NCBI GenBank assembly: GCA_016929775.1 | Contig: JAFGIE010000226.1 | Location: 1-19,965 of the forward strand | DNA: 19,965 nt | Direction: 5' to 3' | From: Anaerolineae bacterium | Lineage (GTDB): Bacteria > Chloroflexota > Anaerolineae > JAFGEY01 | Part shown: positions 3,940-19,965 of the stretch, one piece after another | Layout of the letters: every line of letters starts with the position of its first letter | Numbering within the stretch: the stretch's first letter is position 1 | Made by a program: the position numbers and the translations under genes | Notes under the pieces: model-generated | Database searches by the model: none | The model's input: only the letters and a program-made list of their open reading frames with translations | What the model was told of the DNA's origin: nothing

Positions 3940-3961
3940 AGCAGGTGATGCGGAGGATGCC

Positions 3962-5164: not shown

Positions 5165-5185
5165 GTAGGGCGGTACACGCACAAG

Positions 5186-5211: not shown

Positions 5212-5226
5212 CCAGCCGTGCAGGTG

Positions 5227-5308
5227 TGGGGAAGGCGGGAGTCGAACCCGCACGGATTTCTCCACGTGATCCTAAGTCACGCTCGTCTGCCAGTTCCGAC
5301 ACTTCCCC
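5227..5308 (-). tRNA. tRNA-Leu (anticodon TAG)
   Basis: On the minus strand the acceptor stem GGGGAAG (5308-5302) pairs with CTTCCCC (5234-5228), followed by discriminator A. The anticodon stem CGTGA/TCACG closes loop CTTAGGA, giving TAG. A long variable arm and the 82-base length fit a class II leucine tRNA. The T arm is GCGGG / TTCGACT / CCCGC. CCA is not encoded. Confidence 0.95.
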
Positions 5309-5322
5309 GCTGATTGTGGTCT

Positions 5323-5351
5323 ATTATAGCCAGTCGGGCCAAATCCCGCAA
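5323..5351 (-). promoter_or_regulatory. Promoter of tRNA-Leu
   Basis: On the minus strand TTGCGG (5351-5346), a 17-base spacer and a perfect TATAAT (5328-5323) place the start site about 8 bases before the tRNA 5' end, a typical tRNA promoter layout. Confidence 0.75.
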
Positions 5352-5377
5352 CTCACGCGAATGACGAAGGAGAGGAT

Positions 5378-5878: not shown

Positions 5879-5893
5879 GCGGGGCAGCGCGCG

Positions 5894-7138
5894 ATGGAAG
5901 AGTTCCGTCCCACGGACGAAGCGCTGACCTACCTGCTCTCGCCCGCCGGCGCCGCGCTGCTGGAGCGGCTGTCGGCGCAGGAGCTGGACGAGGCGGACGC
6001 CCTGGCGCACGTCACGCGGCTGCGCAAGGAACACCCGCCTGAAGTGGCGGCGGCGGCGCTCGACCTGGTCCTCCTGCGCCAGCGCGCACGGTCCAAGTTC
6101 AGCCGCGCGGACCGCATGTTCTTCACCCGAGAGGCGCTCGAGCAGGCAAGCGCTGAGGTGGTCAGCCGTCGGCGGGCGGCGCGGTACGCGCGCTATGGCG
6201 CCGTCGCCGACCTGTGCTGTGGGATCGGCGGCGACGCGCTCGCCCTCGCCGCCCGGGGCGACGTCCTCGCCGTGGACCTCGACCCGCTGCGGCTGCGCAT
6301 GGCGCGCGCCAACGCAGGCGCCTACGATCTGGGCGACCGGATCGACGCGCGCTGCGCCGACGTGACGGCATACGCGCCGCCCGCGGGGCGCGCCCTGTGG
6401 GCCGATCCGTCGCGGCGGGCGGGGGGCAAGCGGATCTATGCCCTCTCGGCGTACAAGCCAGCGCTGCCGGCGCTCCTCTCCCTCGCCGCGCGCGCGCCGG
6501 GCGCGGGGATCAAGCTCTCTCCCGGCGTGGACTATCGGGAGCTGGAGCGCATCGTCGGCGGCATACCGCACGAGGTCGAGTTGATCTCGGTGGACGGGGA
6601 GGCGCGCGAAGCGGTGCTCTGGCTGGGGGAGCTGCGTACTGCGCGCCGGCGAGCGACCCTCCTCCCCGCCGGGCACACGCTCACCGGCGACGATCCGGAC
6701 CCCGAGGCAGACATCGCCCCTGGCGTGGGAGACTATCTCTACGAGCCCGATGCAGCCGTGATCCGCGCACACCTCGTCCGCACGCTCGCGGCGCAGATCG
6801 GCGCGCGGCAGATCGACCCGCAGATCGCCTACTTGACCGCCGACCGGCAGATCGACAGCCCGTTCGTGACCGGGTACCAGGTCCTGGAGAGGATGCCCTT
6901 TGGCCTGAAGCGCATTCGGGCGCGGCTGCGCGCCTACGATGTCGGCGAACTGGCGATCAAGAAGCGCGGGATCGGCATCGATCCCGCGCAGTTCTGGCGC
7001 CGTCTGCCGCACGGCGAGGGGCGCGAGCGCGTGATCCTGATCGTGACCCGAGTCAGGGATCGGCCCACCGCGCTGATCTGTCGCTCTGCCCAGGTCTCAC
7101 TGCGTTCCGAGAGCGGAGCGGACGGACCCGGTCCCTGA
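5894..7138 (+). CDS. Class I SAM-dependent methyltransferase with THUMP-like C-terminal domain
   Basis: A protein of 414 residues. After a helical N-terminal part comes a Rossmann methyltransferase core: motif I DLCCGIGGDALALA (104-117), the acidic end of strand 2 in AVDLDPLRLRMA (about 124-135), and ADPSRR as the motif IV equivalent. The C-terminal third, with ITKKRG-like AIKKRGIGIDP, resembles the THUMP-like domain paired with this methyltransferase type. An RNA substrate is likely by family, but the target is not known. The ribosome-binding site is weak (GGCGGGG upstream), which fits translational coupling to the preceding DinB-like gene. The last codons lie within a large hairpin. Confidence 0.85.
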   Translation: MEEFRPTDEALTYLLSPAGAALLERLSAQELDEADALAHVTRLRKEHPPEVAAAALDLVLLRQRARSKFSRADRMFFTREALEQASAEVVSRRRAARYARYGAVADLCCGIGGDALALAARGDVLAVDLDPLRLRMARANAGAYDLGDRIDARCADVTAYAPPAGRALWADPSRRAGGKRIYALSAYKPALPALLSLAARAPGAGIKLSPGVDYRELERIVGGIPHEVELISVDGEAREAVLWLGELRTARRRATLLPAGHTLTGDDPDPEADIAPGVGDYLYEPDAAVIRAHLVRTLAAQIGARQIDPQIAYLTADRQIDSPFVTGYQVLERMPFGLKRIRARLRAYDVGELAIKKRGIGIDPAQFWRRLPHGEGRERVILIVTRVRDRPTALICRSAQVSLRSESGADGPGP

Positions 7139-7152
7139 GAGGGACCGGGTCC
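7124..7152. terminator. Perfect 13-bp hairpin across the methyltransferase stop codon
   Basis: GGACCCGGTCCCT (7124-7136) is exactly complementary to 7140-7152, with a 3-base loop GAG. The TGA stop is at 7136-7138. It lies between convergent transcription units (methyltransferase on plus, cytochrome c on minus) and probably serves both as a barrier. There is no T-tract on either side. Confidence 0.65.
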
Positions 7153-7181
7153 GTGATGCCGGTAAGGCCCACAGAGCGCGT

Positions 7182-7496
7182 CTACTCTGGGAACGCCTCC
7201 GACAGGTACTCGATCACGGCTGCCTGTTCGGCTGCGTTGAGCTGGGCCCCATGGGCTACCATGCGCTCGACGTTCGCCTTCCAGTCTGCCGCGGACTTGG
7301 TCGCTTCCTCGACCCTGCTGTAGGGATGGCACGTCGAGCAGCGCTCCTCCGCCAATGCCTTGCCGTCGAGGGTCACCTCGCTTTCCCCGCCCGCGGGCTC
7401 CGTTGCCGCTTCGTCTGCGCCGCACGCTGCCAGCAGCGCGGCTGCGAGGACGGCGAGCAGGGCGATCAGGACAACGTGTGCTGTGCGTCGCTTCAT
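7182..7496 (-). CDS. Small monohaem cytochrome c lipoprotein
   Basis: A 104-residue protein. A basic start and hydrophobic segment end in a lipobox LAAC (22-25), predicting a lipid-anchored protein outside the membrane. A single haem motif CSTCH is at 53-57. Met79, in the segment W72...ERM79..GAQL, is the likely distal ligand. The tail AEQAAVIEYL is the usual last helix of class I cytochromes c. The start is set by AAGGAG (7510-7505) and the signal peptide. It is the last gene of the long minus-strand array, 31 bases after the flavodiiron gene. It is presumably an electron carrier on the outer face, while its neighbours are cytoplasmic. Confidence 0.9.
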   Translation of the reverse strand: MKRRTAHVVLIALLAVLAAALLAACGADEAATEPAGGESEVTLDGKALAEERCSTCHPYSRVEEATKSAADWKANVERMVAHGAQLNAAEQAAVIEYLSEAFPE

Positions 7497-7527
7497 GTGA
7501 GTGGCTCCTTCTCGGGTGGTTTCTTGT

Positions 7528-8733
7528 TCAGTCGATGTTTCCGCGAACGGCGCGCGCGAAACGCGCCCCAAAATCCCTGCCCGCCTCGAAATCGGCCTGG
7601 GTCGCTGCGCCGACGAACTCGAACTCGCCGAACAGCTCCCACTTGAGCTCCTCGACCAACTGCCCGAAGCGTCGCCCGGCGCCGCCGCTCCAGCCGTAGC
7701 TGCCAAAGCGCGCGGCGAGCTTGTTCTGGATCTTTTTGTGGCTTGCCATCTGGAGGGCCTGGTCGACCAGCGGAAAGAGGCTGCCTTCGTAGGTCGGGGC
7801 GCCCACCATCACCCCCCGCTGCGTCCACAGCGCAGGCAGGACATAGCTGACGTGGGTGTGGGCGACGTCAAAGATCTCGATCGGGACGCCCTGATCCGAG
7901 ATCCCTTGGGCGACGGCGTTCATCATCGCCTCTGTGTTGCCATACATCGAGCCATAGAGCAGCGTGACACCGGGCTGGGTGGGTCCGGTCGCGTACTCGG
8001 CCCACTCCTTGTACAGGCTGACGATCCGGCTCGGGTCCCTGCGCCAGATCAGCCCGTGCGACGGGGCGATGGTCGCGATCGGCAGGGCGCTCAGCTTGTC
8101 GATCGCGCGCAGGACGGGACGGCTAAAGAGCGCCACGATGTTGACATAGTAGCGCAGCGCCTCGCGCTCGTACCAGGCGAGGTTGCCGCATTCGTCGTCA
8201 AAGAGCGCCCCGCGCAGCGCACCATAGCCGCCAAAGGCGTCGCACGAGAACAAGATCTGGTTGCGGGTCTCATACGTGACCATGGTCTCAGGCCAGTGGA
8301 CCATGGGCGCCATGTAGAACTGGAGGGTATGCGCGCCCAGTGTGAGGGTATCGCCGTCGCCGACGGGCCGCACGTGGTCGGTGATCCCATAGAACGCGGC
8401 GAGCATGTCTTGGCAGCGCTTGCTGCACACAAAGGTCACGTCGGGCGCGACGCGGCGAACGGTGCGGATCACGCCGGTGTGATCGGGCTCGAGGTGGTTG
8501 ATGATCACGTATTCGAGCTGGGTCAGGTCGATCAGCTGCTCGATCTGCCCAAAGAACTCGTCGGTCTTGATCGCCTTGGCGAGGTCAATGATCGCCTTGT
8601 GCTCGTCGTCGATCAGGTAGGTGTTGTACGAGACGCCCTCTTGCGTGATCGGCCACAGGCCCTCGAACAGGTCCGTGGTCCGGTCGTTGACGCCGATCCA
8701 GTAGATGTCTGGCTTGACTTGGACAGGTGGCAT
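7528..8733 (-). CDS. FprA-type flavodiiron protein (O2/NO reductase)
   Basis: A 401-residue A-type flavoprotein. It has an N-terminal metallo-beta-lactamase-like diiron domain and a C-terminal flavodoxin domain that binds FMN. The expected diiron ligands are present: His80, Glu82 and Asp84 in NHLEPDH (79-85), His146, Asp165 in SCDAFGG, and His226 in PSHG. The FMN loop is YGSMYGNTEA (260-269). Such proteins reduce O2 to water (or NO to N2O) using rubredoxin or similar donors, and rubredoxin is encoded in the same array. AGGAG precedes the ATG, and a possible separate promoter overlaps the end of the upstream hydrogenase gene. Confidence 0.95.
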   Translation of the reverse strand: MPPVQVKPDIYWIGVNDRTTDLFEGLWPITQEGVSYNTYLIDDEHKAIIDLAKAIKTDEFFGQIEQLIDLTQLEYVIINHLEPDHTGVIRTVRRVAPDVTFVCSKRCQDMLAAFYGITDHVRPVGDGDTLTLGAHTLQFYMAPMVHWPETMVTYETRNQILFSCDAFGGYGALRGALFDDECGNLAWYEREALRYYVNIVALFSRPVLRAIDKLSALPIATIAPSHGLIWRRDPSRIVSLYKEWAEYATGPTQPGVTLLYGSMYGNTEAMMNAVAQGISDQGVPIEIFDVAHTHVSYVLPALWTQRGVMVGAPTYEGSLFPLVDQALQMASHKKIQNKLAARFGSYGWSGGAGRRFGQLVEELKWELFGEFEFVGAATQADFEAGRDFGARFARAVRGNID

Positions 8734-8761
8734 GTCTGCCTGCTCCTCGTTCTTTCCGGTA

Positions 8762-8789
8762 TTGTACGCTCAATGCGTCGCGCATGCAA
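8762..8789 (-). promoter_or_regulatory. Possible internal promoter for flavodiiron-cytochrome genes
   Basis: On the minus strand TTGCAT (8789-8784), 16 bases and TACAAT (8767-8762) lie 30-60 bases before the flavodiiron start, overlapping the last codons of the hydrogenase large subunit. It could give oxygen-responsive expression independent of the upstream genes. Confidence 0.45.
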
Positions 8790-10080
8790 TGCACGGGTCG
8801 AAGGCGCGCACGACGCGTCCCACTGCATGCTCGAGCTCCATGTCGACGGCATCGGCGGATACATAGCGTGCCGCAGCCACGCGCAGTGCACGCTCGATCG
8901 CCAGCATGTTGTGTACAGTGGGAATGATGAACGCCGCCTCCGCGATCCGGCCCTCTAGGATGCGGTAGTGGTGGATCAGCGGCCCACGGGGCGCTTCGAC
9001 CAGCCCATACCCCTCCCCGTCGCGCGGCGTATAGGGCACCGCCGTGTCCTCCCAGTCGAGCTGCTCGGACAGGATCTCGGCGGCGCGCTCCAGGGCATAC
9101 ACCAGCTCGATCCCGCGCGCCAGGTCAAAGAGCATGATCGCGTGCGCGGGCCGGCCAAAGGCACGGTGGAAACGTTCCAGGTAGGCGTCCGCGCGCGGTG
9201 TGCTCATCTGGTCGGCCATATTGATCCGGGCAAGGCTGTTGGCCCGGATCACGCCGCCCTGGTAGCTCGTCTGCCCCGCGTACGAGGTCTCGCTTTCCTC
9301 CAGCAGGAGGTGGCGCTGAAAGTCGCGCGCGGCAAAGGCGTCGCCGATCTCGCCGCTCGCGCACATGACGCGGATCACGTCGCCGTAGTAGCTGGGCTGG
9401 CGGTCGCCGACAGCGGCGATGTAACATGCCGGGCTATCGTCGCCCCAGGTGCCCAGGCGTTCGCCCATTGCGAGAGAGCGCTCCCAGTAGTGGTCGAACA
9501 GCTCGCACGCCGTGGGCAAGACCTGCTCGATCTCGACGCGCATCTCTGCTGCGGCTTGTGGTGCGATCCCGCTGGTCACGCCCCCGATCACGGCTTTCAC
9601 CGGGTGGATGAACTGCCCGCCCGCCACGGCGATCAGGTCGGTCCCCGCCTTGCGCACTTGAAGGGCCCGCGCGGCGATCTCGGCGCTCTGGATGCGTGCT
9701 GCCTGCTCGTCGCGCTGGAAGATGCTGCTCAGGCCCAGCCGGTCGGGCATGGTAAAGATAAAGAGCGACGTGGCCTGGTTCTGGATGATCTGCCCGAGCA
9801 GCAGCAGCTCGCGCAGGCGCACCGCCAGCGGGGGCGGAATGACGCCGAAGGCGTCCTCGAGGGCCTTGACCGAGGCAACGTGATGCGCGGTTGAGCACAC
9901 GCCGCAGATGCGGGGCGTGATCACGGGCATCTGCTCCGCCGGTGCGCCCCGCACAAAGTGCGAGAAGCCGCGGTACTCGACTGCCTGGAACCGCGCCGCG
10001 ACCACCTTGCCGCCCTGGATCTCGACCACCACCTGGGCGTGGCCCTCGATCCGGCTGATCGGGAAGGTCAGCGTGGGCAT
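8770..10080 (-). CDS. [NiFe] hydrogenase large (catalytic) subunit, group 3-like
   Basis: A 436-residue protein holding the NiFe(CN)2CO site for H2 oxidation or production. The N-terminal ligand motif is RICGVC (57-62, Cys59/Cys62). The C-terminal motif DPCIACATH (428-436, Cys430/Cys433) is followed directly by the stop codon, so the usual cleavable C-terminal extension is missing. The ATG at 10080 is one base after the small-subunit stop and matches the family start (ISRIEGHAQV). The sequence resembles soluble group 3 (MvhA/HydA-like) enzymes. No F420, NAD(P)- or membrane-coupling subunit is present in the window. KorAB upstream suggests a ferredoxin-linked role, which is an inference. Confidence 0.93.
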   Translation of the reverse strand: MPTLTFPISRIEGHAQVVVEIQGGKVVAARFQAVEYRGFSHFVRGAPAEQMPVITPRICGVCSTAHHVASVKALEDAFGVIPPPLAVRLRELLLLGQIIQNQATSLFIFTMPDRLGLSSIFQRDEQAARIQSAEIAARALQVRKAGTDLIAVAGGQFIHPVKAVIGGVTSGIAPQAAAEMRVEIEQVLPTACELFDHYWERSLAMGERLGTWGDDSPACYIAAVGDRQPSYYGDVIRVMCASGEIGDAFAARDFQRHLLLEESETSYAGQTSYQGGVIRANSLARINMADQMSTPRADAYLERFHRAFGRPAHAIMLFDLARGIELVYALERAAEILSEQLDWEDTAVPYTPRDGEGYGLVEAPRGPLIHHYRILEGRIAEAAFIIPTVHNMLAIERALRVAAARYVSADAVDMELEHAVGRVVRAFDPCIACATH

Positions 10081-10081
10081 C

Positions 10082-10963
10082 TCAGAGCACCTTCTCCACC
10101 GGTCGTGGCGGGCGGTCGGTGGCTGCATAGTCGGAGAACTGGAACAAAAAGAGCGCCATCTGCGGCGACAGCAGCGCGGCTTCGATCTCGTCGGCGGGGA
10201 TGTCGGTCAGAGAAGAGAACACGCGCTGGATGCTCTTCAGCCAGGCGGTCGACTCTTTGGCGATAAAGGCGTCGGATGGCCCGCGGCAGCCGACGCACGG
10301 ATGCCCAGCCTGGGGGCAGGGGGCGCCGCACCCGCCGCGGGTCGACGAACCGACACACGCGTAGCCCTGGTTGATCAAGCAGATGTCAGGCAGGACTTGG
10401 CCCTGTTGGAAGCCGACGAGGTGCTGGGGCCGCATGTCGCGCAGCTTCCTGCGCCCGCACTCCTGGCACACGGTGCGCGAGGGCGTGAAATCGGGCGGCT
10501 CGAGCAGCAGGGCCATGAACAGCGTCGGGGTCGGCGGGCACCCGGGGAGATAGCGATCGACCTCGACCACGGCGTCGATCGGGCGGCAGCGGGGCAGCAA
10601 GCGCGGCAGGTGGCGGCGGTGCTCTTTTGCCGCAAACACCGCACGCACCTCGTCGCGATCGCCCAAGCTGGCGATCCCTCCCGAGATCGCACAGGTGCCC
10701 ACCGCCACGACCTGGTCGGCGCGGCGCGCTGCGCGGCGCAGGTTGTACATGTCCTCGTCGGTGCGCACGCCGCCGCTGACTAGGAGCAGGTCCACCTCGG
10801 GCACGTCGTACGCCGAGACGACGAGCGGCATATACACCAGCGCGTACTCGTCGGTCCACTGCCCGGCATTGAGCAGCGAGACCTCGCAGCCGGCGCAGCC
10901 GGAGAGTTGGAGTACGGCAAAGCGAGGCATGTCGCGCCCAACTTTGGATTGCCCTTCTGCCAT
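10082..10963 (-). CDS. [NiFe] hydrogenase small (Fe-S) subunit, group 3-like
   Basis: A 293-residue protein that carries electrons between the NiFe site and an external partner. The proximal cluster ligands are Cys23, Cys26 (SGCAGCE), Cys91 (GTCAISGG) and Cys142 (PGCPP). Further Cys for two more clusters occur at 166, 169, 195, 203, 212, 216, 223 and 226, including the group 3-style GCGAPCPQAGHPCVGC. There is no Tat signal or membrane anchor, so the enzyme is cytoplasmic. An internal Met12 (MPRFAVLQLSGC) is an alternative start nearer the usual family N-terminus. It lies 39 bases after korB and one base before the large subunit. Confidence 0.93.
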   Translation of the reverse strand: MAEGQSKVGRDMPRFAVLQLSGCAGCEVSLLNAGQWTDEYALVYMPLVVSAYDVPEVDLLLVSGGVRTDEDMYNLRRAARRADQVVAVGTCAISGGIASLGDRDEVRAVFAAKEHRRHLPRLLPRCRPIDAVVEVDRYLPGCPPTPTLFMALLLEPPDFTPSRTVCQECGRRKLRDMRPQHLVGFQQGQVLPDICLINQGYACVGSSTRGGCGAPCPQAGHPCVGCRGPSDAFIAKESTAWLKSIQRVFSSLTDIPADEIEAALLSPQMALFLFQFSDYAATDRPPRPVEKVL

Positions 10964-11002
10964 GTCCCTGACCTCGGGCTCGCGATGCCGGTGCGCGGGT
11001 TC

Positions 11003-11872
11003 CTACATCACCTCGGCGCGCAGGGCATCCACCTGTTCTGGCGTGAGCGGGCGCATGGGGCGCTCTACGAGGGGCCCCTCCTGGAGCGCCGCGACCTGCG
11101 CCTCGTAGGTCGGGATGCCCGTCACCTGGTAAAAGACGCCGATCGGGATCCGGTCGCCCCACTCTTGCGCCCGTTCCCAAGCCGCGGCGCGATCGGTGAC
11201 GTCGTGCCCCGTCTCTTCCAGCTTGTAGACGCGCTCGTTGTAGAAATCGTAAGCGCTGGCGCGGTTAAAGGTCACGCACGGCTGGAGTACGTCGACCAAG
11301 GCATAGCCGTCGTGCTGCAGGGCCTGAACTAGGAGGGAAACCAGGTGCCGCAGTTCGCCCGGGTAGCCGCGTGCCACAAAGGTTGCGCCCATCGTGATCG
11401 CCAATGCCAGCGGCGGGACCGGGCTATCGATCGCGCCCTGAGGCGAGGTCGGCGTGCGCATGCCGGGGCTGCTCGTCGGCGAGTACTGCCCCTTGGTCAG
11501 GCCATACACGCGGTTGTTCTGTACCAGATCGACAAAGCCGATGTTCCGGCGGGCGGCGTGGGCAAAGTGGGCGAGCCCCATGCCGTAGCCGTCGCCATCG
11601 CCGTGCACCGCCAAGACCCGCATCCCGTGGTTCGCCAGGCGTACACCGGTTGCCACCGGCAGCGCACGACCGTGCAGACCATGGAAGCCGTTGACCTTCA
11701 TATAGTGGGGCAGCTTGCTGCCACAGCCGATCCCGGTGCAGATGATCAGTTCGTGCGGTGCGATCTGCAGCTCTACCAGGGCCATCTTGAGCGCGTTGAG
11801 GATGCCATAGTTGCCGCAGCCCTTGCACCACGTCGGGCTCTCGGGACTGTCGAAATCTGCTCTGGTGACCAT
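11003..11872 (-). CDS. korB: 2-oxoacid:ferredoxin oxidoreductase beta subunit
   Basis: A 289-residue thiamine diphosphate-binding subunit. It shows WCKGCGNYGI (15-24), CTGIGCGSKLPHY, HGLHGRALPVATG, the GDGDGYGMG TPP/Mg loop and NNRVYGLTKGQYSPTS, all typical of KorB. Cys16, Cys19 and later Cys residues should bind a 4Fe-4S cluster. With KorA it oxidises a 2-oxoacid (probably 2-oxoglutarate, possibly pyruvate) with CoA and reduces ferredoxin. The ATG at 11872 follows GAGGAG and lies 14 bases after the korA stop; the frame stays open upstream, but similarity starts here. No ferredoxin-like delta subunit is present. Confidence 0.93.
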   Translation of the reverse strand: MVTRADFDSPESPTWCKGCGNYGILNALKMALVELQIAPHELIICTGIGCGSKLPHYMKVNGFHGLHGRALPVATGVRLANHGMRVLAVHGDGDGYGMGLAHFAHAARRNIGFVDLVQNNRVYGLTKGQYSPTSSPGMRTPTSPQGAIDSPVPPLALAITMGATFVARGYPGELRHLVSLLVQALQHDGYALVDVLQPCVTFNRASAYDFYNERVYKLEETGHDVTDRAAAWERAQEWGDRIPIGVFYQVTGIPTYEAQVAALQEGPLVERPMRPLTPEQVDALRAEVM

Positions 11873-11886
11873 CGTCTGCTCCTCTG

Positions 11887-13629
11887 TCAGCTCGTCGCTC
11901 GCTCGACGATGTACTCGGGCGAGAAGGGGCGCCCATCGTAGCGCAGGATCTGCGCTGCGGGCGATCGTCCGGTCTCGGTGCGGATCAACCTGGCAAGCTG
12001 CCCGGTCGAGTTGACCTCGACCGTGACCACGCGCTGCGCCTGGTCGAGCGCCGCTGCCACGTCGGCAGCGGGAAAGGGCCACATGTCCCCCACGTGCAGC
12101 ATGTTGGCGCTGCCGGGACGCGCGCCGTTCAGGCGATCGACCGCCTCGCGCAGCGGGCCATAGGTCGAGCCCCAGCACACATAGGTCGTCTCGGCGGAGG
12201 CGGGGCCATAGCGCGTCGGCGGCTGCACATGCTTGGCCATGCCCACCTGCTTGCGCGCGCGCTTGTCGACCTGGGCGACGCGCATCGCCATCTCTTCGGT
12301 GATCGCCCCGCGCTGGTCGTGCTCGTTGCTCGCCGAGACCCAGACTGCGTTGGAGTGCCCGGGGAGGGCGCGTGGCGAGACGCCCGAGGGCGTGAGCTTG
12401 TAGCGGAGATAGGGTTCCTCGAGGGCATCCAGTTCGGCTGGACTGAGCAGCGCGCCGCGATCGATCTCGACGGCGTCAAAGTCGAGCGCGTCCACGTCGA
12501 GAGTCCGGACAGCGACCGCCAGGTAGTGATCGCTGAGGACCAGCACCGGCGTCTGGAACTGCTCCGCGAGGTTGAACGCGCGCCATCCAGCTTCGAAGGC
12601 CTGCTCGTGCGTGCCAGGGGTGAGCATAAAGCGCGGGAACTCGCCCTGCGAGGCGTGCAGCATAAAGAGCATGTCGCCTTGCTCGTTGCGGGTGGGCAGG
12701 CCCGTCGCCGGTCCGGGTCGCTGCGCGTTATAGATCACGACCGGGGTCTCGGTGATCCCGGCAAGCCCCAGGGCCTCCACCATCAGCGAGAAGCCGCCGC
12801 CCGAAGTGGGAACGAGGGCGCGCGCCCCCATGTGCGCGGCGCCGATCGCCATGTTGATCCCGGCGATCTCGTCCTCGGTGTGCTTGACCACGACGCCGTA
12901 CTGCGCGCCGTGTGCCGCCATCCAGTGCAGGACCGGGGAGCCGGGCGTCATCGGGTAGCCCGACGCGAAGCGGCAGCCGCCCGCGAGCGCGCCCATGGAG
13001 AAGGCCTCGGTGCCGTTGAGCACCATGCGCGGCGGCGCGCCGGCGACGGTCGGCAGCGTGTATGGATAGTCTCCGGCATGGGCCGCTCCCTGCTGGTAGC
13101 CCCATGCCACCGCTGCGAGGTTGCCGTCGACCACAGCTTGGCCCTTGCGCGCGAAATTGTCGCGGATCACGCTCTCGAGTGGGGCGACGTCAAAGCCGGT
13201 GATGCCGGCGGCAAAGCCCAAGGCGAGCGTATTGCGCGCCAAGGTGGTGCCTGCCTTTTCCTGCGCCATCTCGCTCATCGGCAGCGAGATGTAGCGTATC
13301 CCTTCGCCCGTCAGGTCTTCGGGGGCGACCTTGAGGCTGCTGTCATAGACGACCGCCCCACCGGGCGCCATCGCCGTGCGGTGGCGTGGGATCGTCTCCT
13401 CAGTGAGCGCCAATAGCAGGTGAACGGGTTCGGCGTGTGCGTGGAGCGGCTGGTCGCTGACGCGGACCGAGTAAAAGTTATGCCCACCCCGGATCCGCGA
13501 GTAGTAGTCGGGGAGGCCAAAGACGTACAGCCCGCCCCGGGTCAGTGCAGTGCAGAACCCAGCGCCGCTCGACTCGACGCCATCGCCTGCCGCGCCTCCA
13601 ATTCGGATGGTCAGATCGGTGCTTGCCAT
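11887..13629 (-). CDS. korA: 2-oxoacid:ferredoxin oxidoreductase, fused gamma-alpha subunit
   Basis: A 580-residue fusion. The gamma domain (1-190) starts with IRIGGAAGDGVESSG (8-22) and contains YSRIRGGHNFYSVRVSD. The alpha pyrimidine-binding region (about 205-450) contains YPMTPGSPVLHWMA, KHTEDEIAGINMAIGAAHMG and TSGGGFSLMVEALG. A C-terminal transketolase-like domain follows. This is the two-subunit KorAB type. It supplies reduced ferredoxin, which the neighbouring FTR and possibly the hydrogenase could use. The ATG at 13629 matches the family N-terminus; GGGGTGG lies upstream as a loose ribosome-binding site. The 82 bases before it hold no clear promoter. Confidence 0.93.
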   Translation of the reverse strand: MASTDLTIRIGGAAGDGVESSGAGFCTALTRGGLYVFGLPDYYSRIRGGHNFYSVRVSDQPLHAHAEPVHLLLALTEETIPRHRTAMAPGGAVVYDSSLKVAPEDLTGEGIRYISLPMSEMAQEKAGTTLARNTLALGFAAGITGFDVAPLESVIRDNFARKGQAVVDGNLAAVAWGYQQGAAHAGDYPYTLPTVAGAPPRMVLNGTEAFSMGALAGGCRFASGYPMTPGSPVLHWMAAHGAQYGVVVKHTEDEIAGINMAIGAAHMGARALVPTSGGGFSLMVEALGLAGITETPVVIYNAQRPGPATGLPTRNEQGDMLFMLHASQGEFPRFMLTPGTHEQAFEAGWRAFNLAEQFQTPVLVLSDHYLAVAVRTLDVDALDFDAVEIDRGALLSPAELDALEEPYLRYKLTPSGVSPRALPGHSNAVWVSASNEHDQRGAITEEMAMRVAQVDKRARKQVGMAKHVQPPTRYGPASAETTYVCWGSTYGPLREAVDRLNGARPGSANMLHVGDMWPFPAADVAAALDQAQRVVTVEVNSTGQLARLIRTETGRSPAAQILRYDGRPFSPEYIVERATS

Positions 13630-13711
13630 GGTATCCACCCCACAGTCTAGGATCCGGCTGGTACAAGTTCCGGTGCAACGGGCGAAAAGCGGGCCCTGTC
13701 CCTCGCGCCTG

Positions 13712-14230
13712 CTAGGTGCGGACCTGCAGCCTGGTGCGCTGCCCCTGGCGCCAGACGACCAGGTCGACCGGCTGGTCGTACCTGAGACCGGCGGTCGCAC
13801 GATGTACGTCTTGGTCGCTGCCGATCGTCTGCCCGTTAAGCTGGACGATCACGTCCCCTGCGCGCAGGCCCGCCAGCCCCGCCGCCGACGCAGGTCGCAC
13901 GCGTCCGACGTAGGCGCCTGCCGGGAGCCGGATGCCGCGCTTGGCTGCGATCTGGGCAGCATCGGCGATCGACACGCCCAGTCTGGGCGGATCGTGGGCC
14001 CGCTGTCTCAAGATATCGTTGATGCGCGGGATGTCCGCCCCAATCACTACCTGCCCGTCGACGATGGACACAGGCACGCCCTGTTGGCCCGAGATGCGCA
14101 CCATCTCGTTGGCCCGATAGGAGTCCTGGCTTACGTCGTGCTCGGCAAAGGGAATGCCGCGCTGTGCCAGGTAGTTCTTGAGCTGGTAGCAGTACCCGCA
14201 GGTCGGGGTCGTGTAGACGGTGATGCTCAT
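13712..14230 (-). CDS. Glutaredoxin domain fused to a PDZ domain
   Basis: A 172-residue protein. Residues 1-80 are a glutaredoxin/NrdH-like thioredoxin fold with active site CGYC (11-14) in TTPTCGYCYQLKNYL and the cis-Pro segment QQGVPVSIVDG. Residues 85-172 look like a PDZ domain: LGVSI, the AGAYVGRV...SAAGLAGLRAGDVIVQLNG core, and a closing beta strand. There is no signal peptide or membrane segment, so it is cytoplasmic. PDZ domains bind protein C-termini, so the fusion could direct disulfide reduction to chosen partners (inference). The ATG at 14230 starts at the glutaredoxin fold; the frame is open for 25 more codons upstream, but without a good ribosome-binding site. Confidence 0.88.
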   Translation of the reverse strand: MSITVYTTPTCGYCYQLKNYLAQRGIPFAEHDVSQDSYRANEMVRISGQQGVPVSIVDGQVVIGADIPRINDILRQRAHDPPRLGVSIADAAQIAAKRGIRLPAGAYVGRVRPASAAGLAGLRAGDVIVQLNGQTIGSDQDVHRATAGLRYDQPVDLVVWRQGQRTRLQVRT

Positions 14231-14264
14231 CCGTGCACCCTGTGTGACCCGCCACATAGATGCA

Positions 14265-14300
14265 GAGAGAACCGGGCGCGCAGCGGCGCGCCGGTCTCTC
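14265..14300. terminator. Hairpin between FTR-rubredoxin and glutaredoxin-PDZ genes
   Basis: GAGAGA (14265-14270) pairs with TCTCTC (14295-14300), continued inward by CCGG and CGCGC pairs with two one-base bulges (about 15 bp). A near-complementary outer pair, 14246-14255 with 14314-14322, can enclose it. No U-tract is present. It may terminate partially or process the minus-strand transcript. Confidence 0.5.
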
Positions 14301-14320
14301 CGCACGTGCGTACGTGGCGG

Positions 14321-14839
14321 TCAGGCGAACCGCTCGAAGCGATCCCGGTCGGCCTTGCAGATCGGGCACTTGAGTGGGGGCTGAGGGCGTGCGCACAGGT
14401 AGCCACACACCTTGCAGCGCCACACCGGCAGCCCGCTCCGGGTGAACCCGACCTGCTCCATCTCGTGCGTCTCTGCCTCTGGCGGACCCTCGAAACGGCG
14501 ATCCGGGATCGACTCTGCCTCCCGCTCACCGCGCACGATCTCTTCGGCGACATACAGCGCACAGTAGCACGCTCCATAGTCGTCGAGGTCGGGATCGCGA
14601 TAGTCGCACGGGCAGATGATGTCCAGGTCTGCCTCGCGTTCGCCGTCTGCCAGACGGCAGGGGCAGGCTTGGTAGCCGTAGCGCGCCTCGTTGGTCAGCA
14701 GCCCGTCCATCAGGTCGAGCACAAAGTCGACGTCGGGATGGAGATAGTAGCCCGCCGCCTCGCCCTCTCGCTTCAGCCGCTGGTACAGCGCCCACGCCTC
14801 CGGTCGCTGGCGCGCGCGCTCTGCGTCCGCGCTGGTCAT
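14321..14839 (-). CDS. Ferredoxin-thioredoxin reductase catalytic subunit fused to rubredoxin-like domain
   Basis: A 172-residue protein. Residues 20-100 carry the FTR-beta cysteine pattern CPC (59-61), CPC (76-78) and CYC (91-93). In the family, one Cys of the first pair and one of the last form the redox-active disulfide, and the other four bind the 4Fe-4S cluster. The last motif has Tyr92 where chloroplast FTR has His. Residues 140-172 are a rubredoxin/rubrerythrin-type knot: C142-x2-C145, C158-x2-C161. FTR reduces thioredoxin-fold disulfides with ferredoxin electrons. No FTR alpha subunit is present. The start ATG overlaps the glutaredoxin stop by four bases, and its likely partners are the two adjacent glutaredoxin-fold proteins. 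Confidence 0.92.
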
Positions 14840-15084
14840 AGCCCCAGTAGCTCCCTCATCCGCTCTTCTTTGTAGCCCGCGACGCTTTCGTCGTCGTTGA
14901 CGACCAGGGTGGGAAAGCTGATCCGCGGGTTCCACTTGCGGACCTCTTCCAGGACCTTGTCTTTTTCTTCTTTTTCCAATAGATCCACGTAGACCAGGTC
15001 GTACACGACGTTGTTCTCGTCGAGCAGCGTCCTGGCTTTGCGGCACCAACCACACGTGCTGAGCGCATACAGTTTGACGTTCAA
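14836..15084 (-). CDS. Small glutaredoxin-like protein (CGWC)
   Basis: An 82-residue protein with a thioredoxin fold: beta strand VKLYALST, active site CGWC (11-14), helix [10 protein letters not shown], and cis-Pro region [10 protein letters not shown]. The size and the CGWC active site fit the NrdH/glutaredoxin-like group. There is no GSH-binding signature I can be sure of. The start codon is TTG; no ATG or GTG occurs in frame between it and the upstream stop. AAGGGA and GAGG lie just upstream. The four-base overlap with the FTR-rubredoxin gene suggests coupled translation and a ferredoxin-FTR-glutaredoxin electron path (inference). Confidence 0.88.
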
Positions 15085-15100
15085 TGCCTCGTCCCTTAGC

Positions 15101-15853
15101 CTATGCTTCGAGCGTGCAGATCGCGCCTGGGCGCTTGATGCGCAGCACGAGGCTCTCCATCAAGCGGAAGAGGTGATCCAGTCCCTCGTTGCCCATGTAC
15201 GTCGTGATCAGGTCCTGGCCGATCGCCAGGTCCAAGTTGTGCGCGCCAAGCGAGAGGACCATCGCTTGGTCTGGCGCCAGCACCATCGAGCGAAAGAGCC
15301 CACCGTCGGCTACGTCGGTGATCAGCTTGCTCTCGAGGCGCATGCCCCGCCCGAAGCGCTGGGTCTTGGCATACAGCGCCGGGCTGACGATCACGGCGTA
15401 GGGCCCAAAGAAGCCATCGCTGACCAGGGCCTCGATCGCCGAGGTGATGTTCTCAAAGGCGTTGCCGGTGGTCTCCCAGTCGAGCAGCTTGACCGTCTTG
15501 CGTCCCTCGGCAGACAGCAGCTCCCCCAGGACCATCGTGTCCTCTTCCTTGGCGCAGTGTGCTGCCGCTTCGGCGGCGGCGCCCAGCTCGAGCGGCAGAC
15601 CCGCACGGCGGTTGGCCTCGATGTCGCGCCAGAAGAGCGAGAAATCGGACTGGATGGTCTTCATCGCCAACTGGCGGCGGTTCGGCCCGGCGCCGACCGG
15701 CACTATCTCTGTCCCGGCGCCAAAGGGTCCGACTAGCTCGATGAACCGGCGCCCGACCAGGATCTGCCGCGCAGCGTGGACGACGACCTTGTCCAGCCGC
15801 TCCCACTCCGCCTTGGTCAGGGGTGCATCATCACGCATAAACAGGTCGCTCAT
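15101..15853 (-). CDS. Family 1 encapsulin nanocompartment shell protein
   Basis: A 250-residue protein related to HK97 phage capsid protein and to linocin M18/CFP29-type encapsulins. It self-assembles into a hollow shell that packages proteins bearing a short C-terminal targeting tail. Seen are the N-terminal helix PLTKAEWERLDKVV (11-24), ARQILVGRRFIELVGPFGAG (28-47), and the E-loop/P-domain middle with PNRRQLAMKTIQSDFSLFWRD. The C-terminal block YMGNEGLDHLFRLMESLVLRI precedes AICTLEA. The length is slightly below the about 265 residues typical of T=1 shells. Its AGGAGG overlaps the stop codon of the upstream cargo gene (10-base gap), so shell and cargo are translationally coupled. Confidence 0.95.
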   Translation of the reverse strand: MSDLFMRDDAPLTKAEWERLDKVVVHAARQILVGRRFIELVGPFGAGTEIVPVGAGPNRRQLAMKTIQSDFSLFWRDIEANRRAGLPLELGAAAEAAAHCAKEEDTMVLGELLSAEGRKTVKLLDWETTGNAFENITSAIEALVSDGFFGPYAVIVSPALYAKTQRFGRGMRLESKLITDVADGGLFRSMVLAPDQAMVLSLGAHNLDLAIGQDLITTYMGNEGLDHLFRLMESLVLRIKRPGAICTLEA

Positions 15854-15863
15854 GTCTGTCCTC

Positions 15864-16844
15864 CTACTTGTCGATCAGGCTGCCGACGGTGAACCCTGTG
15901 CCGGCAGCAGGCTTGTCTGTATCATCGGTCTGTGCTGCGGGAGGCTCGGCTTTCTCTGGTGCCTCCGCTTCTTTCGTTTCTCCCGCTTCTTCCATCAGCT
16001 CTTCGACCGTCATTGCCAGGAACTCGTTGCGCGTGACCATGTTCTCGACTTCGTTCTTGAGCCCGGCGTGCTCTGCCAGTTCGGGGTTCGCCGCGAGCTG
16101 GGCAAAGCGCTCGCGCGCGGCGAGCGTCAGATCGAGGTCCGACTTGAGAGCGGGCATCACGTCCGTGCTCATATCCACCCCGGGGTACTCGAACCTGAGC
16201 GCTTGTCCCGACTCGGTTAGCTCCTCGGCAAAGTGCGACAGGTGCTTCATATGGCGCATGGCGCTCAGTTCGAGCTCGCCGCTCACCGGGCAGGCCTGGT
16301 CCTCAAAGACAAACGCGTGGCGCAGGTGCTGGAGCACGATCCTGTAATGCTCGTCCGTCTCCTGCTGAAAGTACGCGAGCATGTCCGGCGAGAACCCGGC
16401 CTCTTCTCCATAGGTGAACGGCTCCTCGGCGGCGGGACCCAGCTTTTCCAGCCACTGCTCGAAGCGGCGCTGGTGTGTCAGCGACTCCTGGCTCTGCTGG
16501 AGCAGCATGCGCTTGATCTCGGGATCGTCGACCTTGGCTGCCTGGTCCTTGTACACCTGGATCAGGTTCTTTTCCCAGGCGATGTAGGAGCGCAGAAGCG
16601 AGCCGTTTGAGGTCGGGTCGTGTGGGTAGTCGCCTTGGGCCATCTGCGGCTCTGCGCCCAACTCGCCCAAGACGTCGCCGATCCAATCCATGTGCCACAT
16701 CTCTTCGCGCGCCGTGGCGAGCAAGTCCGCGCCAAAGGGGGTGCTCTCACCGACCTGGTAGGCGTGGACCAGATACCGGATGACCGACGCGTGCTCATCG
16801 GCGAGATCCACGTTCAGCATGTCGATCAGTGCTTGCCTGTCCAT
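15864..16844 (-). CDS. Tandem ferritin-like protein with encapsulin-targeting tail (cargo)
   Basis: A 326-residue protein with three parts. Domain 1 (1-145) has a bacterioferritin-like diiron pattern: Glu17, Glu48-x2-His51, Glu91, and Glu120 with His124. Domain 2 (about 150-287) is a second helical bundle with E165 and HMKHLSHFAEE (198-208), recalling the EMKHAD motif but with His in place of the first Glu; its last helix lacks a clear E-x2-H. A disordered Glu/Pro/Ala/Asp linker (288-315) leads to the terminal GFTVGSLIDK, an encapsulin cargo tag. The likely role is ferroxidase and iron storage, or peroxide consumption, inside the shell. AGGAGG lies five bases before the ATG. The exact family name is uncertain. 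Confidence 0.88.
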   Translation of the reverse strand: MDRQALIDMLNVDLADEHASVIRYLVHAYQVGESTPFGADLLATAREEMWHMDWIGDVLGELGAEPQMAQGDYPHDPTSNGSLLRSYIAWEKNLIQVYKDQAAKVDDPEIKRMLLQQSQESLTHQRRFEQWLEKLGPAAEEPFTYGEEAGFSPDMLAYFQQETDEHYRIVLQHLRHAFVFEDQACPVSGELELSAMRHMKHLSHFAEELTESGQALRFEYPGVDMSTDVMPALKSDLDLTLAARERFAQLAANPELAEHAGLKNEVENMVTRNEFLAMTVEELMEEAGETKEAEAPEKAEPPAAQTDDTDKPAAGTGFTVGSLIDK

Positions 16845-16872
16845 TCATACCTCCTAGAACAACGTCTGCAGG

Positions 16873-16908
16873 GCGCAGGCCCCAGGCGGCGTCACCTGGG
16901 GCCTGCGC
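16873..16908. terminator. Perfect 14-bp hairpin between superoxide reductase and cargo genes
   Basis: GCGCAGGCCCCAGG (16873-16886) is exactly complementary to 16895-16908, with an 8-base loop. On the minus strand it follows the superoxide reductase stop by 7 bases. Only 28 bases separate it from the cargo start, too few for a usual promoter plus leader. Partial termination or 3'-end protection is likely. Confidence 0.6.
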
Positions 16909-16915
16909 GGCGCGA

Positions 16916-17311
16916 TCAGGCGAGCGCGACCTCTGCGGTGCTTTCCCACAGCCCGTGGATGTTGCAGAACGAGACCGCCTGCAAGATGCCCGGCTTGTCC
17001 GTCTTGATCGTCACCACCGCGCTGGGCGCGGTGTACAGCGGTCCCTGGTTGGGCCCGGCAACCGACTCGCCGTGCGCCGTGAACTCAAAGTGCCCGACCT
17101 GCAAGGGGACCGGCGCCCCTTCGGGCTGAAAGTAGACCGCGATCCACGAGATGTGATGCTCGGTGGTGTTGGGGTGTGCGACGCCCTTGCCCAGGCTGAC
17201 CTTGACCTCAAAGTCAACGCCTGCTTCGACGCTTGCGGGCGCCTCGATCACCGGGACGTGTTTCTCGGTCTTCCAATCTGCGCTCTTGATCACTTGACTG
17301 ATGGCTGCCAC
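16916..17311 (-). CDS. Class II (1Fe) superoxide reductase / neelaredoxin
   Basis: A 131-residue protein that reduces superoxide to hydrogen peroxide without making O2, using rubredoxin electrons. The catalytic iron site is complete: EKH (16-18, with Lys17 near the open site and His18 as ligand), HPNTTEHH (46-53, His46 and His52), and CNIHG (116-120, axial Cys116 and His119). It lacks the N-terminal desulforedoxin domain, hence class II. The start is GTG at 17311-17309, fixed by AGGAGG six bases upstream and by the family N-terminus. It sits between rubrerythrin, which would remove its product, and the encapsulated ferritin-like gene. Confidence 0.96.
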   Translation of the reverse strand: MAAISQVIKSADWKTEKHVPVIEAPASVEAGVDFEVKVSLGKGVAHPNTTEHHISWIAVYFQPEGAPVPLQVGHFEFTAHGESVAGPNQGPLYTAPSAVVTIKTDKPGILQAVSFCNIHGLWESTAEVALA

Positions 17312-17362
17312 GATTGTCCTCCTTTGCCCATGTGTCCTTGGGCTACAAAGTGTGTGTGGGTA

Positions 17363-17426
17363 GGACGGCGCCGCCACGGCGCCATCCCTCTATCCGCGCG
17401 TAGGGGATCTCCTGCGTGCGTCCCCT
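17363..17426. other. Two hairpins in the rubrerythrin-superoxide reductase gap
   Basis: The 141-base gap (17312-17452) is the longest in the minus-strand array. GGCGCCG (17367-17373) pairs with CGGCGCC (17377-17383) around loop CCA, extended by three pairs after a mismatch (17363-17365 with 17385-17387). A weaker stem AGGGGA/TCCCCT pairs 17402-17407 with 17421-17426. No U-tract and no convincing promoter were found in the gap. Confidence 0.5.
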
Positions 17427-17452
17427 GACGTCCCTTCGCTGCTGAGACTGTG

Positions 17453-17956
17453 CTAGAACTTGACGAACCGGGACCGGTCGGTCCTGGAAACCGGGCACTT
17501 TTCGGGTGGCTCGCCGATCACGGTGTAGCCACACACCGGGCAGATGTACACGGGCTGGGAGGCGATGTCTGCGCCCGCTTCGACCTGCGCCTTGGCGCTG
17601 CGGTACATGACCTCGTGGATCTTTTCCGCTTCCAGGGCGTAATGGATGCTCACCAGCGCGCCCCTCTCGCCCTGCAAATGCGCCACGGCGTCATAGGCGG
17701 GGTACATCTCGGTGTTCTCAAAGTTCTCGCCGCCGGCGGCGCTTTCGAGGTTGTCGGCGGTCGTGCCAATGCCCTGCAGCTCCTTCAGGTGGTTGATGGC
17801 GTGCACCTGCTCGGCGTAAGAGATGGCGCGGAAGAGACGCGCCACCTCGGGCAAGCCGTCCGCCTCGGCTTGCGCGGCAAAGGCCAAGTACTTCATGTGG
17901 GCCTGGCTCTCGCCAGCAAATGCGTCTTGCAGGTTCGCTTTGGTCATTGCGTGCAT
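17453..17956 (-). CDS. rbr: Rubrerythrin (peroxidase) with altered rubredoxin site
   Basis: A 167-residue cytoplasmic protein that reduces H2O2 to water. The diiron four-helix domain has Glu16, SYAEQVH (Glu49, His52), GERGA (Glu97) and ALEAEKIHEVMY (Glu111, His114). The C-terminal rubredoxin domain has CPVC (139-142), but the second pair reads CPVS (154-157). The fourth iron ligand is thus Ser157 (codon TCC) instead of Cys (TGC), which should change iron binding and electron entry. AGGAG lies 11 bases before the first ATG; Met4 is a possible alternative. It is 33 bases after the flavoprotein gene. Confidence 0.94.
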   Translation of the reverse strand: MHAMTKANLQDAFAGESQAHMKYLAFAAQAEADGLPEVARLFRAISYAEQVHAINHLKELQGIGTTADNLESAAGGENFENTEMYPAYDAVAHLQGERGALVSIHYALEAEKIHEVMYRSAKAQVEAGADIASQPVYICPVCGYTVIGEPPEKCPVSRTDRSRFVKF

Positions 17957-17989
17957 GTCGTTCTGTCTCCTCGTAGGGTGTATAGTGCG

Positions 17990-19219
17990 TCAGGCGGGGG
18001 CTGTGCCCCGCGCCAGCGCGCTCAGATCCAGACTGCCATCGATCAGGCGTTCGCCATATGCAGCCACTTCTCGCCGTTCGGCGATCAGCCGCTGGATCGA
18101 CCGTGCTTCGGTCGTATCGCCCAGCAAAATGGCGCCCACGACCACGTTGCCGCGGAACGTGAGCCGCTTGTAGATCCCGTTGTCCTCGTCGCTATAGCGC
18201 GCGATCGTGTACTCGTCTCCCTCGACCGTCGACTCGCCGAGGCACGTCAAGTCAATGCCCACGATCTTGAGCGTGGTGGAAGGCACAGTGCCCGCATATA
18301 GTGGGCGCCCGCTGCCCACCATGTTGGCTGCCGCCATGCGTGCCTGCTCGATCGCAGCAGGGATGATGCCGTACACCCGTCCCTCGAACTCGGCAACGTC
18401 CCCGGCAGCATACACGTCTGGGGCGCTGGTCTGCAGGTGCCCGTTCACCACGACGCCGCGCGCGACCTCGAGCCCTGCTGCGCGGGCTAGATCGGTCTTG
18501 GAGCGAATGCCGGTCGAGAGCAACGCCATATCGCCTGCGATCTCGGCGCCATCCGAGAGCCGTACGCCCTGTACGTGCCCGTCGCCCAAGATCGCTTCGG
18601 TGCTCTTGCCAACGTAGAAGCGCAGGCCTATCGCCTCCAGGCGGCGCCTCAGCACGGCTGCGCCGGGGGCGTCCAGCTGGCGCGGCAGGAGATAGGGAAA
18701 GATCTCGAGCACGTACACGTCGCGCTTGGGGCCAAGCAGCGCGCGCGCCGTCTCCAGGCCCAGCAGACCCCCGCCGAGCACGAGCACGCGATCCACCTGC
18801 TCGGCATACGCCTTGATGGCGCGCGCGTCCTCCAGGGTGCGGAGCGTGAAGACGCCCCGTACGTTCGCGCCCGCGATCGGCGGCACAAAGGGCACGCCCC
18901 CCGTCGCCAACAGCAAGCGGTCATACGCGAGCGTCGTCCCATCGCTCAACGATAGTGCGTGCGCCTGGAGATCGAGCTCCGTGACGCAAGCGCCCAGCCG
19001 CAACTGGATCCCCTGCGTGGCGTACCAATCGACTGGTCGGAAAAAGAGATCCTGCTCCTCGATCTCGCCCGCGATCCAAGCCCACAGCCGGGGGCGTTGG
19101 TAGTAGGGATAGGGCTCGCTGCCGATCAGCTGCACGGATGCGCTCGAGTCCGCGCGCGCGATCGCTTGTGCTGCGGTCACTCCTGCCACGCCGTTGCCCA
19201 CGATGACATAGTTCGGCAT
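17990..19219 (-). CDS. FAD-dependent NAD(P)H oxidoreductase, rubredoxin reductase-like
   Basis: A 409-residue two-dinucleotide-fold flavoprotein. The FAD motif is IVGNGVAGVTAAQAI (5-19), the NAD(P) motif is LVLGGGLLGLETARAL (about 146-161), and the second FAD contact is YAAGDVAEF. It resembles NADH:rubredoxin oxidoreductase and the N-terminal half of nitrite reductases. The C-terminal domain (about 310-409) is shared by these relatives. Lying six bases after rubredoxin, it most likely passes NAD(P)H electrons to rubredoxin and thereby to superoxide reductase, rubrerythrin and the flavodiiron protein. The donor (NADH or NADPH) cannot be decided. Confidence 0.9.
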   Translation of the reverse strand: MPNYVIVGNGVAGVTAAQAIARADSSASVQLIGSEPYPYYQRPRLWAWIAGEIEEQDLFFRPVDWYATQGIQLRLGACVTELDLQAHALSLSDGTTLAYDRLLLATGGVPFVPPIAGANVRGVFTLRTLEDARAIKAYAEQVDRVLVLGGGLLGLETARALLGPKRDVYVLEIFPYLLPRQLDAPGAAVLRRRLEAIGLRFYVGKSTEAILGDGHVQGVRLSDGAEIAGDMALLSTGIRSKTDLARAAGLEVARGVVVNGHLQTSAPDVYAAGDVAEFEGRVYGIIPAAIEQARMAAANMVGSGRPLYAGTVPSTTLKIVGIDLTCLGESTVEGDEYTIARYSDEDNGIYKRLTFRGNVVVGAILLGDTTEARSIQRLIAERREVAAYGERLIDGSLDLSALARGTAPA

Positions 19220-19225
19220 CGTGGA

Positions 19226-19387
19226 TCAGCTCAGTTCTTCGAACATATCTTTGCCCGCCCCGCATTCGGGACAGACCCAGTCGTCGGGCAGGTCTTCGAA
19301 AGGCGTGCCGGGCGCAATGTCATTCTCTGGATCGCCGACCAGTGGGTCGTAGATGTAGCCGCAGCCCAGGCATTCCCATTTCTGCAT
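19226..19387 (-). CDS. Rubredoxin
   Basis: A 53-residue electron carrier with a single Fe(Cys)4 centre: [12 protein letters not shown] provides the first CxxC pair and [18 protein letters not shown] the second. The conserved aromatic and Gly residues of rubredoxin are present. The ATG at 19387 gives standard rubredoxin length and has AGGAG nine bases upstream. A GTG at 19408, overlapping the regulator stop, would add seven residues and is less likely. It is the probable donor for superoxide reductase and the flavodiiron protein. Confidence 0.95.
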
Positions 19388-19404
19388 CGCATCGCTCTCC
19401 TGTC

Positions 19405-19839
19405 TCACGTGGCCCGATCTGGGCCCGCGCAGCTCGCACAGTACCCATAGATCGTTACCTCGTACCGGATCGGGTGGAATCCATCCTTGTCCTGGAACAA
19501 GGTCGCAAGCTGATCAAAGTCGCCGGGGACGTCCCGGATCTTGCCGCAGCGCACGCACACCAGGTGTCCGTGCGATCCGCGAGACAGCTCATAGTGCCGC
19601 GTGCCGCCGCCCAGGTTCAGCTCGTAGACCTGACCGATGGCAACCAGCTCACGCAGGGTATTATACACCGTTGCGAGCGAAATGTCAGGCATTCCCTCTG
19701 ACACGCGCGCGTGGATCTGCTCGGCAGTCGGGTGCTGTGGCGTGCAGCCGACGATCACTTCGATGATCGCCCGGCGCTGCGGCGTCATCTTGTACCCGTG
19801 TTCCCTGAATTGGTCTACCAGATCTTGCAGTTGGCCCAT
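19405..19839 (-). CDS. Fur/PerR-family metal-dependent transcriptional regulator
   Basis: A 144-residue protein with an N-terminal winged helix (recognition helix in [14 protein letters not shown], 52-65) and a C-terminal metal/dimer domain. The structural zinc site is CVRC (95-98) with CASC (134-137). Regulatory ligands would be His36, Glu84, His90, His92 and Asp103. Asp103 fits PerR (peroxide sensing), while Glu84 at the position of PerR Asp85 is more Fur-like, so the assignment within the family is open. As first gene of the oxygen-defence array it probably controls its own promoter. GGAGAG lies seven bases before the ATG. Confidence 0.93.
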
Positions 19840-19863
19840 TAGACACTCTCCGTATTGAGACAG

Positions 19864-19892
19864 ATTATAAGGGTCGGAAGGACTCCTGTCAA
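19864..19892 (-). promoter_or_regulatory. Consensus promoter of the redox-defence array
   Basis: On the minus strand a perfect TTGACA (19892-19887), a 17-base spacer and a perfect TATAAT (19869-19864) precede the regulator by about 25 bases; the start site should be near 19857. A 9-base palindrome AGGACTCCT (19879-19887) sits in the spacer and could be part of an operator. No clear Fur or Per box was recognised. The remaining bases to the window end (19893-19965) hold nothing I can name. Confidence 0.85.
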
Positions 19893-19965
19893 GTCAGGCA
19901 CACTGGTCGTGCCAGGAGCAGTCGCCCACTGTCGGCGGAAGCGCGCAGGCAGGCTCTGCCGCAAA

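Follow-up and report, generated by a model that had tools for sequence, protein, structure and literature searches.

What does an encapsulin enclose when the gene directly ahead of it encodes two ferritin-like bundles in one chain, and what would such a compartment be for? We address this question for a stretch of 19,965 nucleotides from a Chloroflexota genome (Anaerolineae bacterium, GenBank assembly GCA_016929775.1, contig JAFGIE010000226.1, positions 1 to 19,965), which we call the window. On its minus strand, a gene for a tandem ferritin-like protein is followed closely by the gene for an encapsulin shell protein. We consider it quite probable that the two proteins form an iron compartment of the Family 1 encapsulin type, with a cargo of the bacterioferritin ("Flp+Flp") class, that serves in an anaerobe's oxygen defence. 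The parts of the pair are as follows.

15864..16844, minus strand: tandem ferritin-like (bacterioferritin-type) protein of 326 amino acids, the predicted cargo (Pfam Ferritin 8.7e-07; two-bundle model; conserved tag)
16440..16838, minus strand: bundle 1, residues 3-135 (ligand positions E17, E48/H51, E91, S121/H124)
15966..16388, minus strand: bundle 2, residues 153-293 (ligand positions H166, H198/H201, T240, N273/L276)
15894..15965, minus strand: acidic Pro/Ala linker, residues 294-317, predicted disordered (mean predicted local distance difference test score of ten-residue blocks 42-56)
15876..15893, minus strand: putative cargo-loading tag FTVGSL, residues 318-323 (conservation; TVGSL core as in known targeting peptides)
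15854..15866, minus strand: cargo stop codon and 10-nucleotide gap; the AGGAGG ribosome-binding site of the shell gene starts within the stop codon
15101..15853, minus strand: Family 1 encapsulin shell protein, 250 amino acids
15683..15694, minus strand: E-loop remnant, shell residues 54-57 (4 residues)

Evidence for an encapsulin cargo role of the tandem protein

The shell protein scores over the curated cut-off as an HK97-fold Linocin_M18 protein, which identifies it as a Family 1 encapsulin. An earlier reading of this DNA, made from the sequence only (the sequence-only reading), had proposed that its neighbour consists of two ferritin-like bundles, an acidic Pro/Ala linker and a terminal tail of the TVGSL type that acts as a Family 1 cargo tag. 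The structure prediction agrees with the first two points, placing two four-helix bundles within one chain ahead of a disordered linker. Bacterioferritin-type (Flp+Flp) cargos are recognized by these two bundles, together with a C-terminal targeting peptide and an adjoining encapsulin gene, and the window has all of these.

To assess the tail, we collected the best 120 of 256 matches to the cargo and the best 120 of 501 matches to the shell, with the window's own protein included in each; these are the sequences called listed below, and from them 61 and 59 were picked by hand for structure alignments. The pattern [TIPS][VI]G[STGN]L is present within the last 25 residues of 118 of the 120 listed cargo sequences, while one of the other two ends in AVGSL and one has no tag. 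The linker ahead of the tag varies freely in length and sequence. The core of the tag equals that of other systems: the native targeting peptide of Myxococcus xanthus is PLTVGSLRRGG (PMC7925596), and the targeting peptides of IMEF cargos share the TVGSL core (PMC11202242, Table 2). The window itself contains no second tagged cargo, as [TSAI][VI]G[STGN]L is found nowhere else in its six frames.

We then asked how the tag is distributed across 298 genomes of the same class, Anaerolineae. A cargo match was obtained in 77 of them, and a tandem protein was read in 38. The remaining 39 genomes matched less well (E 1.5e-13 or worse), mainly in frames of single-bundle length, and G153 may be a fragment. 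In 30 of the 38 genomes the tandem protein has an encapsulin frame beside it in the same orientation. All 30 proteins end in a tag, by a pattern that was widened after viewing the sequences to admit variants such as SVGKL, SVGNL, TVGGL and TVGTL. In the remaining eight genomes there is no encapsulin nearby, and none of the tandem proteins is tagged; they stop at about the end of the last helix and have no linker. The encapsulin family PF04454 has no match in any of these eight genomes. The association between tag and adjoining shell is strong (30/30 versus 0/8; Fisher p 2e-8, uncorrected for kinship). A shell match was found in 47 genomes, 17 of them outside the 30; in 16 of these 17 (all except G211, a weak match), the stretches that were read contained no tandem cargo. 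The eight untagged tandem bacterioferritins (L008, L009, L013, L017, L022, L025, L026 and L068) keep all 12 diiron ligands. Among the listed proteins, 20 cargo and shell clusters pair up by eye as apparent contig mates, some of the short ones perhaps by chance.

Because the tag is conserved behind a freely varying linker, and because tag and shell occur together in this way, the assignment of the tandem protein as an encapsulin cargo is strongly supported. The tail thus appears to be what the sequence-only reading took it for, and none of the 30 tandem relatives read beside a shell gene lacks it.

Diiron ligand positions of the two bundles

Each bundle has six positions at which diiron ligands are expected, in the window's numbering 17, 48, 51, 91, 121 and 124 for bundle 1, and 166, 198, 201, 240, 273 and 276 for bundle 2. 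In a tree of 48 sequences, the window's clade forms a single branch with a support of 100/100 and a length of 1.79; long branches meet at this clade, so we make no claim about its position. G250, of which a contig edge leaves only the last 100 cargo residues, was omitted from the tree, from the bundle 1 counts and from most bundle 2 counts. Outside the clade, all 12 ligands are kept in 35 of 35 tandem relatives, of which 27 are encapsulated and eight stand alone.

Within the clade, five of the six ligands of bundle 1 are kept wherever the sequences cover them (E17 in 116, E48 in 118, H51 in 119, and E91 and H124 in all of the 120 listed sequences). The sixth, the fourth-helix Glu at position 121, is Ser in 120 of 120. 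Bundle 1 therefore has five of the six ligands found per subunit in bacterioferritin proper. Classical ferritins likewise do without the bridging Glu of the fourth helix, and for this reason bundle 1 is likely still a ferroxidase.

The changes in bundle 2 are more extensive. His at 198, Thr at 240 and Leu at 276, each in all 120 listed sequences, have replaced E198, E240 and H276. Position 166 is Glu in 56, His in 32, Gln in 31 and Asn in one, and position 273 is Asn in 57, Glu in 56, Thr in four and Asp in three, while His at position 201 is kept in 112. To judge by these residues, bundle 2 very probably has no diiron centre. The idea that the second bundle is altered is therefore upheld, whereas the peroxidase work that the sequence-only reading had offered for it is unsupported, and we rejected this role because most of the ligands are missing. 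Some residues of bundle 2 are fixed in the clade, namely E162 (118/120), H198 (120/120) and E265 (119/120), and these may have a structural role or form a displaced metal site.

The shell and its E-loop

The shell model aligns over residues 8-249 of the window's protein, with an E-loop of four residues. The window's shell is about 30 residues shorter than EncA of M. xanthus, mainly at the E-loop and at the loop after the long helix; at the E-loop, 30 EncA residues stand opposite nine of the window's shell. The arrangement of the E-loop is described as determining the triangulation number (PMC11202242), and hardly anything of this loop is left here; the 60 subunits that the sequence-only reading gave to the shell are an assumption. 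We considered the possibility that a shell without an E-loop represents a new kind of encapsulin, and set it aside because the Pyrococcus furiosus shell (2e0z) may be a precedent: it aligns with the shell model over an equal span of 236 residues, although PMC8229669 counts it among shells with a compact E-loop.

Among the 120 listed shells, the E-loop has exactly four residues and no Cys in 86, and 9-14 residues and no Cys in five. In the other 29 it has 29-37 residues, and all 29 contain four to eight Cys. One such loop reads ACLHDEEGCxCxxGxC; the carriers lie among P0165 to P0237, which do not all have it. A loop of this composition could possibly bind metal or form cross-links. One of these shells, P0212, is apparently the contig mate of the cargo P0108, which belongs to the window's own clade, and hence both loop types seem to be present within the clade. 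Cysteine-rich E-loops also occur in G008 (L019/L039) and G044 (L028/L038), where the adjoining tandem cargos have two intact centres, and there are more Cys in G008.

Relationship to known systems

The sequence-only reading considered a double-bundle cargo to be new. This novelty falls, because tagged two-bundle cargos are an already published class. "Bacterioferritin" cargos with two four-helix bundles and C-terminal targeting peptides were reported in 2021, Chloroflexi included (Andreas & Giessen, PMC8346489), and section 8 of a 2024 review describes "Flp+Flp" cargos as two consecutive bundles, a linker and a long disordered C-terminus (PMC11202242). The window's cargo shares with them, as they are presented there, the two bundles per chain, the disordered C-terminal stretch, the targeting peptide, the encapsulin operon and the occurrence in Chloroflexi. 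The parts of PMC8346489 and PMC11202242 that concern these cargos contain no solved structure or assay for a two-bundle encapsulin cargo.

There are also differences. According to the review, the ferroxidase centre is in general conserved in bundle 1 only, and bundle 2 has variable centres (PMC11202242). This does not hold for the relatives sampled outside the window's clade, since both centres are intact in 27 of 27 that are encapsulated. The window's clade, for its part, additionally lacks one ligand of bundle 1. It is a variant clade of the published class, in which the second centre has decayed and hardly any E-loop is left in the shell. In the open-licence literature searched (subscription papers may differ) we found no description of the clade's pattern of ligand loss or of a shell nearly without an E-loop, no encapsulin with a cysteine-rich E-loop, and no pairing of encapsulin with desulfoferrodoxin.

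EncFtn and IMEF proteins have the same role as Family 1 cargos, and the TVGSL core of the window's tag recurs in those of M. xanthus and IMEF. However, EncFtn and IMEF proteins do not have two bundles per chain, and the NCBIfam models for encapsulated ferritins score far below their cut-offs on the window's cargo (ferrit_encaps, TIGR04535, 20.6 bits of 125; EncB, NF058679, 27.5 of 90). The best sequence match in the PDB is the tandem bacterioferritin 9viw, with 306 amino acids, both halves of which align to bundle 1. This match runs to residue 295 of 306, so that a linker and tag would hardly fit into what remains of that protein.

Genomic context

The genes around the pair, in their order along the minus strand, are these.

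19405..19839, minus strand: Fur-family regulator, on the cargo's strand and upstream of it (PF01475 4.2e-27)
17990..19219, minus strand: NADH:rubredoxin-reductase-like flavoprotein (PF07992 6.3e-57; PF18267 Rubredoxin_C 1.6e-17)
17453..17956, minus strand: rubrerythrin with C-terminal rubredoxin-like domain (PF02915 1.1e-22; PF21349 8.9e-08)
16916..17377, minus strand: desulfoferrodoxin / superoxide reductase, ferrous iron-binding domain only (PF01880 9.3e-33; TIGR00332 108.8 bits)
16845..16915, minus strand: intergenic stretch from desulfoferrodoxin to cargo, containing a GC-rich hairpin of 16 bp at 16873-16908
(cargo and shell, as given above)
14836..15084, minus strand: glutaredoxin-like protein, directly 3' of the shell gene (PF00462 2.1e-11)
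14321..14842 (chosen start), minus strand: fusion of a ferredoxin:thioredoxin reductase beta-like and a rubredoxin-like domain (PF02943 1.9e-19; PF21349 2.3e-13)
11003-13800, minus strand: pyruvate:ferredoxin oxidoreductase subunits
8770-10963, minus strand: NiFe hydrogenase subunits
7528-8733, minus strand: flavodiiron-type protein

The last three entries form a compact anaerobic redox region on one strand (7528-13800). The superoxide reductase, rubrerythrin, rubredoxin-reductase-like, flavodiiron and Fur genes point, by their order in the window, to iron sequestration as part of an anaerobe's defence against oxygen and peroxide. Desulfoferrodoxin, which adjoins the cargo in the window, is present in 23 of the 30 genomes searched and lies 69-1375 nucleotides from the cargo-shell block in six of the 23. 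In G009, a rubrerythrin gene is seen by eye between those for desulfoferrodoxin and cargo.

The RNA of the gap between desulfoferrodoxin and cargo (16845-16920) has a predicted folding energy of -43.8 kcal/mol (z -4.28), and no shuffled sequence was as low. A terminator at this position was considered and not accepted, since no T-run follows the strong hairpin at 16873-16908 and the terminator scan gave 4 sites against 3.7 expected. The hairpin may just as well act in the processing or stability of the mRNA. Farther upstream, a perfect TTGACA-17-TATAAT pair is located at 19864-19892 on the minus strand, about 24 nucleotides 5' of the Fur-family gene, and a promoter-like pair matching at 11 of 12 positions is located at 19660-19688, within that gene.

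Proposed mechanism and alternatives

We propose that the FTVGSL tail, carried on its flexible linker, would dock on the shell's inner surface, as the tags of known systems suggest. Bundle 1 would use O2 or H2O2 to oxidize Fe(II) at a site with five ligands, like that of classical ferritins, the iron would mineralize within the shell, and bundle 2 would be the structural half of a pseudo-dimer. If the gene order is a guide, superoxide reductase, rubrerythrin and the flavodiiron protein would clear superoxide, peroxide and O2, and the part of the compartment would be to withdraw the free iron that might otherwise feed Fenton chemistry.

Several observations weigh against this proposal. The eight shell-less genomes are drafts. 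Shell-carrying and stand-alone relatives share descent, so that the groups of 30 and eight do not represent independent cases. Desulfoferrodoxin is off the cargo contig in 17 of the 23 genomes, many contigs being short, and the flavodiiron gene is more than 6 kb from the shell gene. Rubrerythrin-family matches were obtained in 30 of 30 genomes; the family model, however, also matches the cargo itself, and so rubrerythrin as a conserved neighbour says little. In addition, the missing fourth-helix Glu might weaken the ferroxidase activity of bundle 1.

The interpretation most directly opposed to a cargo role is that the tail is a mere disordered C-terminus and the protein a cytosolic ferritin. 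The eight relatives from genomes without a detected shell show that the bundles need no encapsulation, as they lack tag and linker. However, we think this interpretation very improbable for the window's protein, in view of the strict conservation of the tag behind its variable linker and the 30/30 versus 0/8 distribution. Another alternative concerns haem: the bundles could be placed as in a bacterioferritin homodimer, with one haem between Met49 and Met199 providing an electron path for iron release. Met49 is present in 119 of the 120 listed clade sequences (the other has a gap) and Met199 in all 120, and both are present in 35 of 35 sequences outside the clade. However, haem-free bacterial ferritin FtnA also has Met at this position, so these residues are not diagnostic. 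We therefore kept a haem-bridged cargo as an alternative only, and an unlikely one.

The question of how the iron is contained allows for a further arrangement, in which twelve tandem chains form a bacterioferritin-like cage of 24 bundles with its own cavity, tethered within the shell by as many as twelve tags, such that bundle 2 provides contacts and bundle 1 the chemistry. A 12-mer cargo cage within the shell has been suggested for Flp+Flp cargos (PMC11202242), and what such nesting of cages is for is called unknown (PMC8346489, PMC11202242). On the other hand, EncFtn cargos form open decamers (PMC8346489), and containment is perhaps a matter for the shell. We regard the nested cage as possible, with some reservation. 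More doubtful is the hypothesis that the window's clade represents a re-engineered compartment. Under this hypothesis, the clade abandoned the second diiron centre, and E162, H198, H201 and E265, each found in at least 112 of the listed 120, became fixed residues that may form a displaced metal site. The E-loop of related shells, which otherwise helps to set subunit contacts and shell size, would have been cut to four residues or exchanged for a cysteine-rich and possibly metal-binding loop, leading to unusual pores or geometry.

Significance

The tandem ferritin-like proteins provide a natural series on what encapsulation gives a ferritin, comprising encapsulated proteins with two intact centres, the window's clade with about one, and untagged relatives without a shell. 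Similarly, a shell nearly without an E-loop would be a test of how far the E-loop decides the size of an encapsulin shell.
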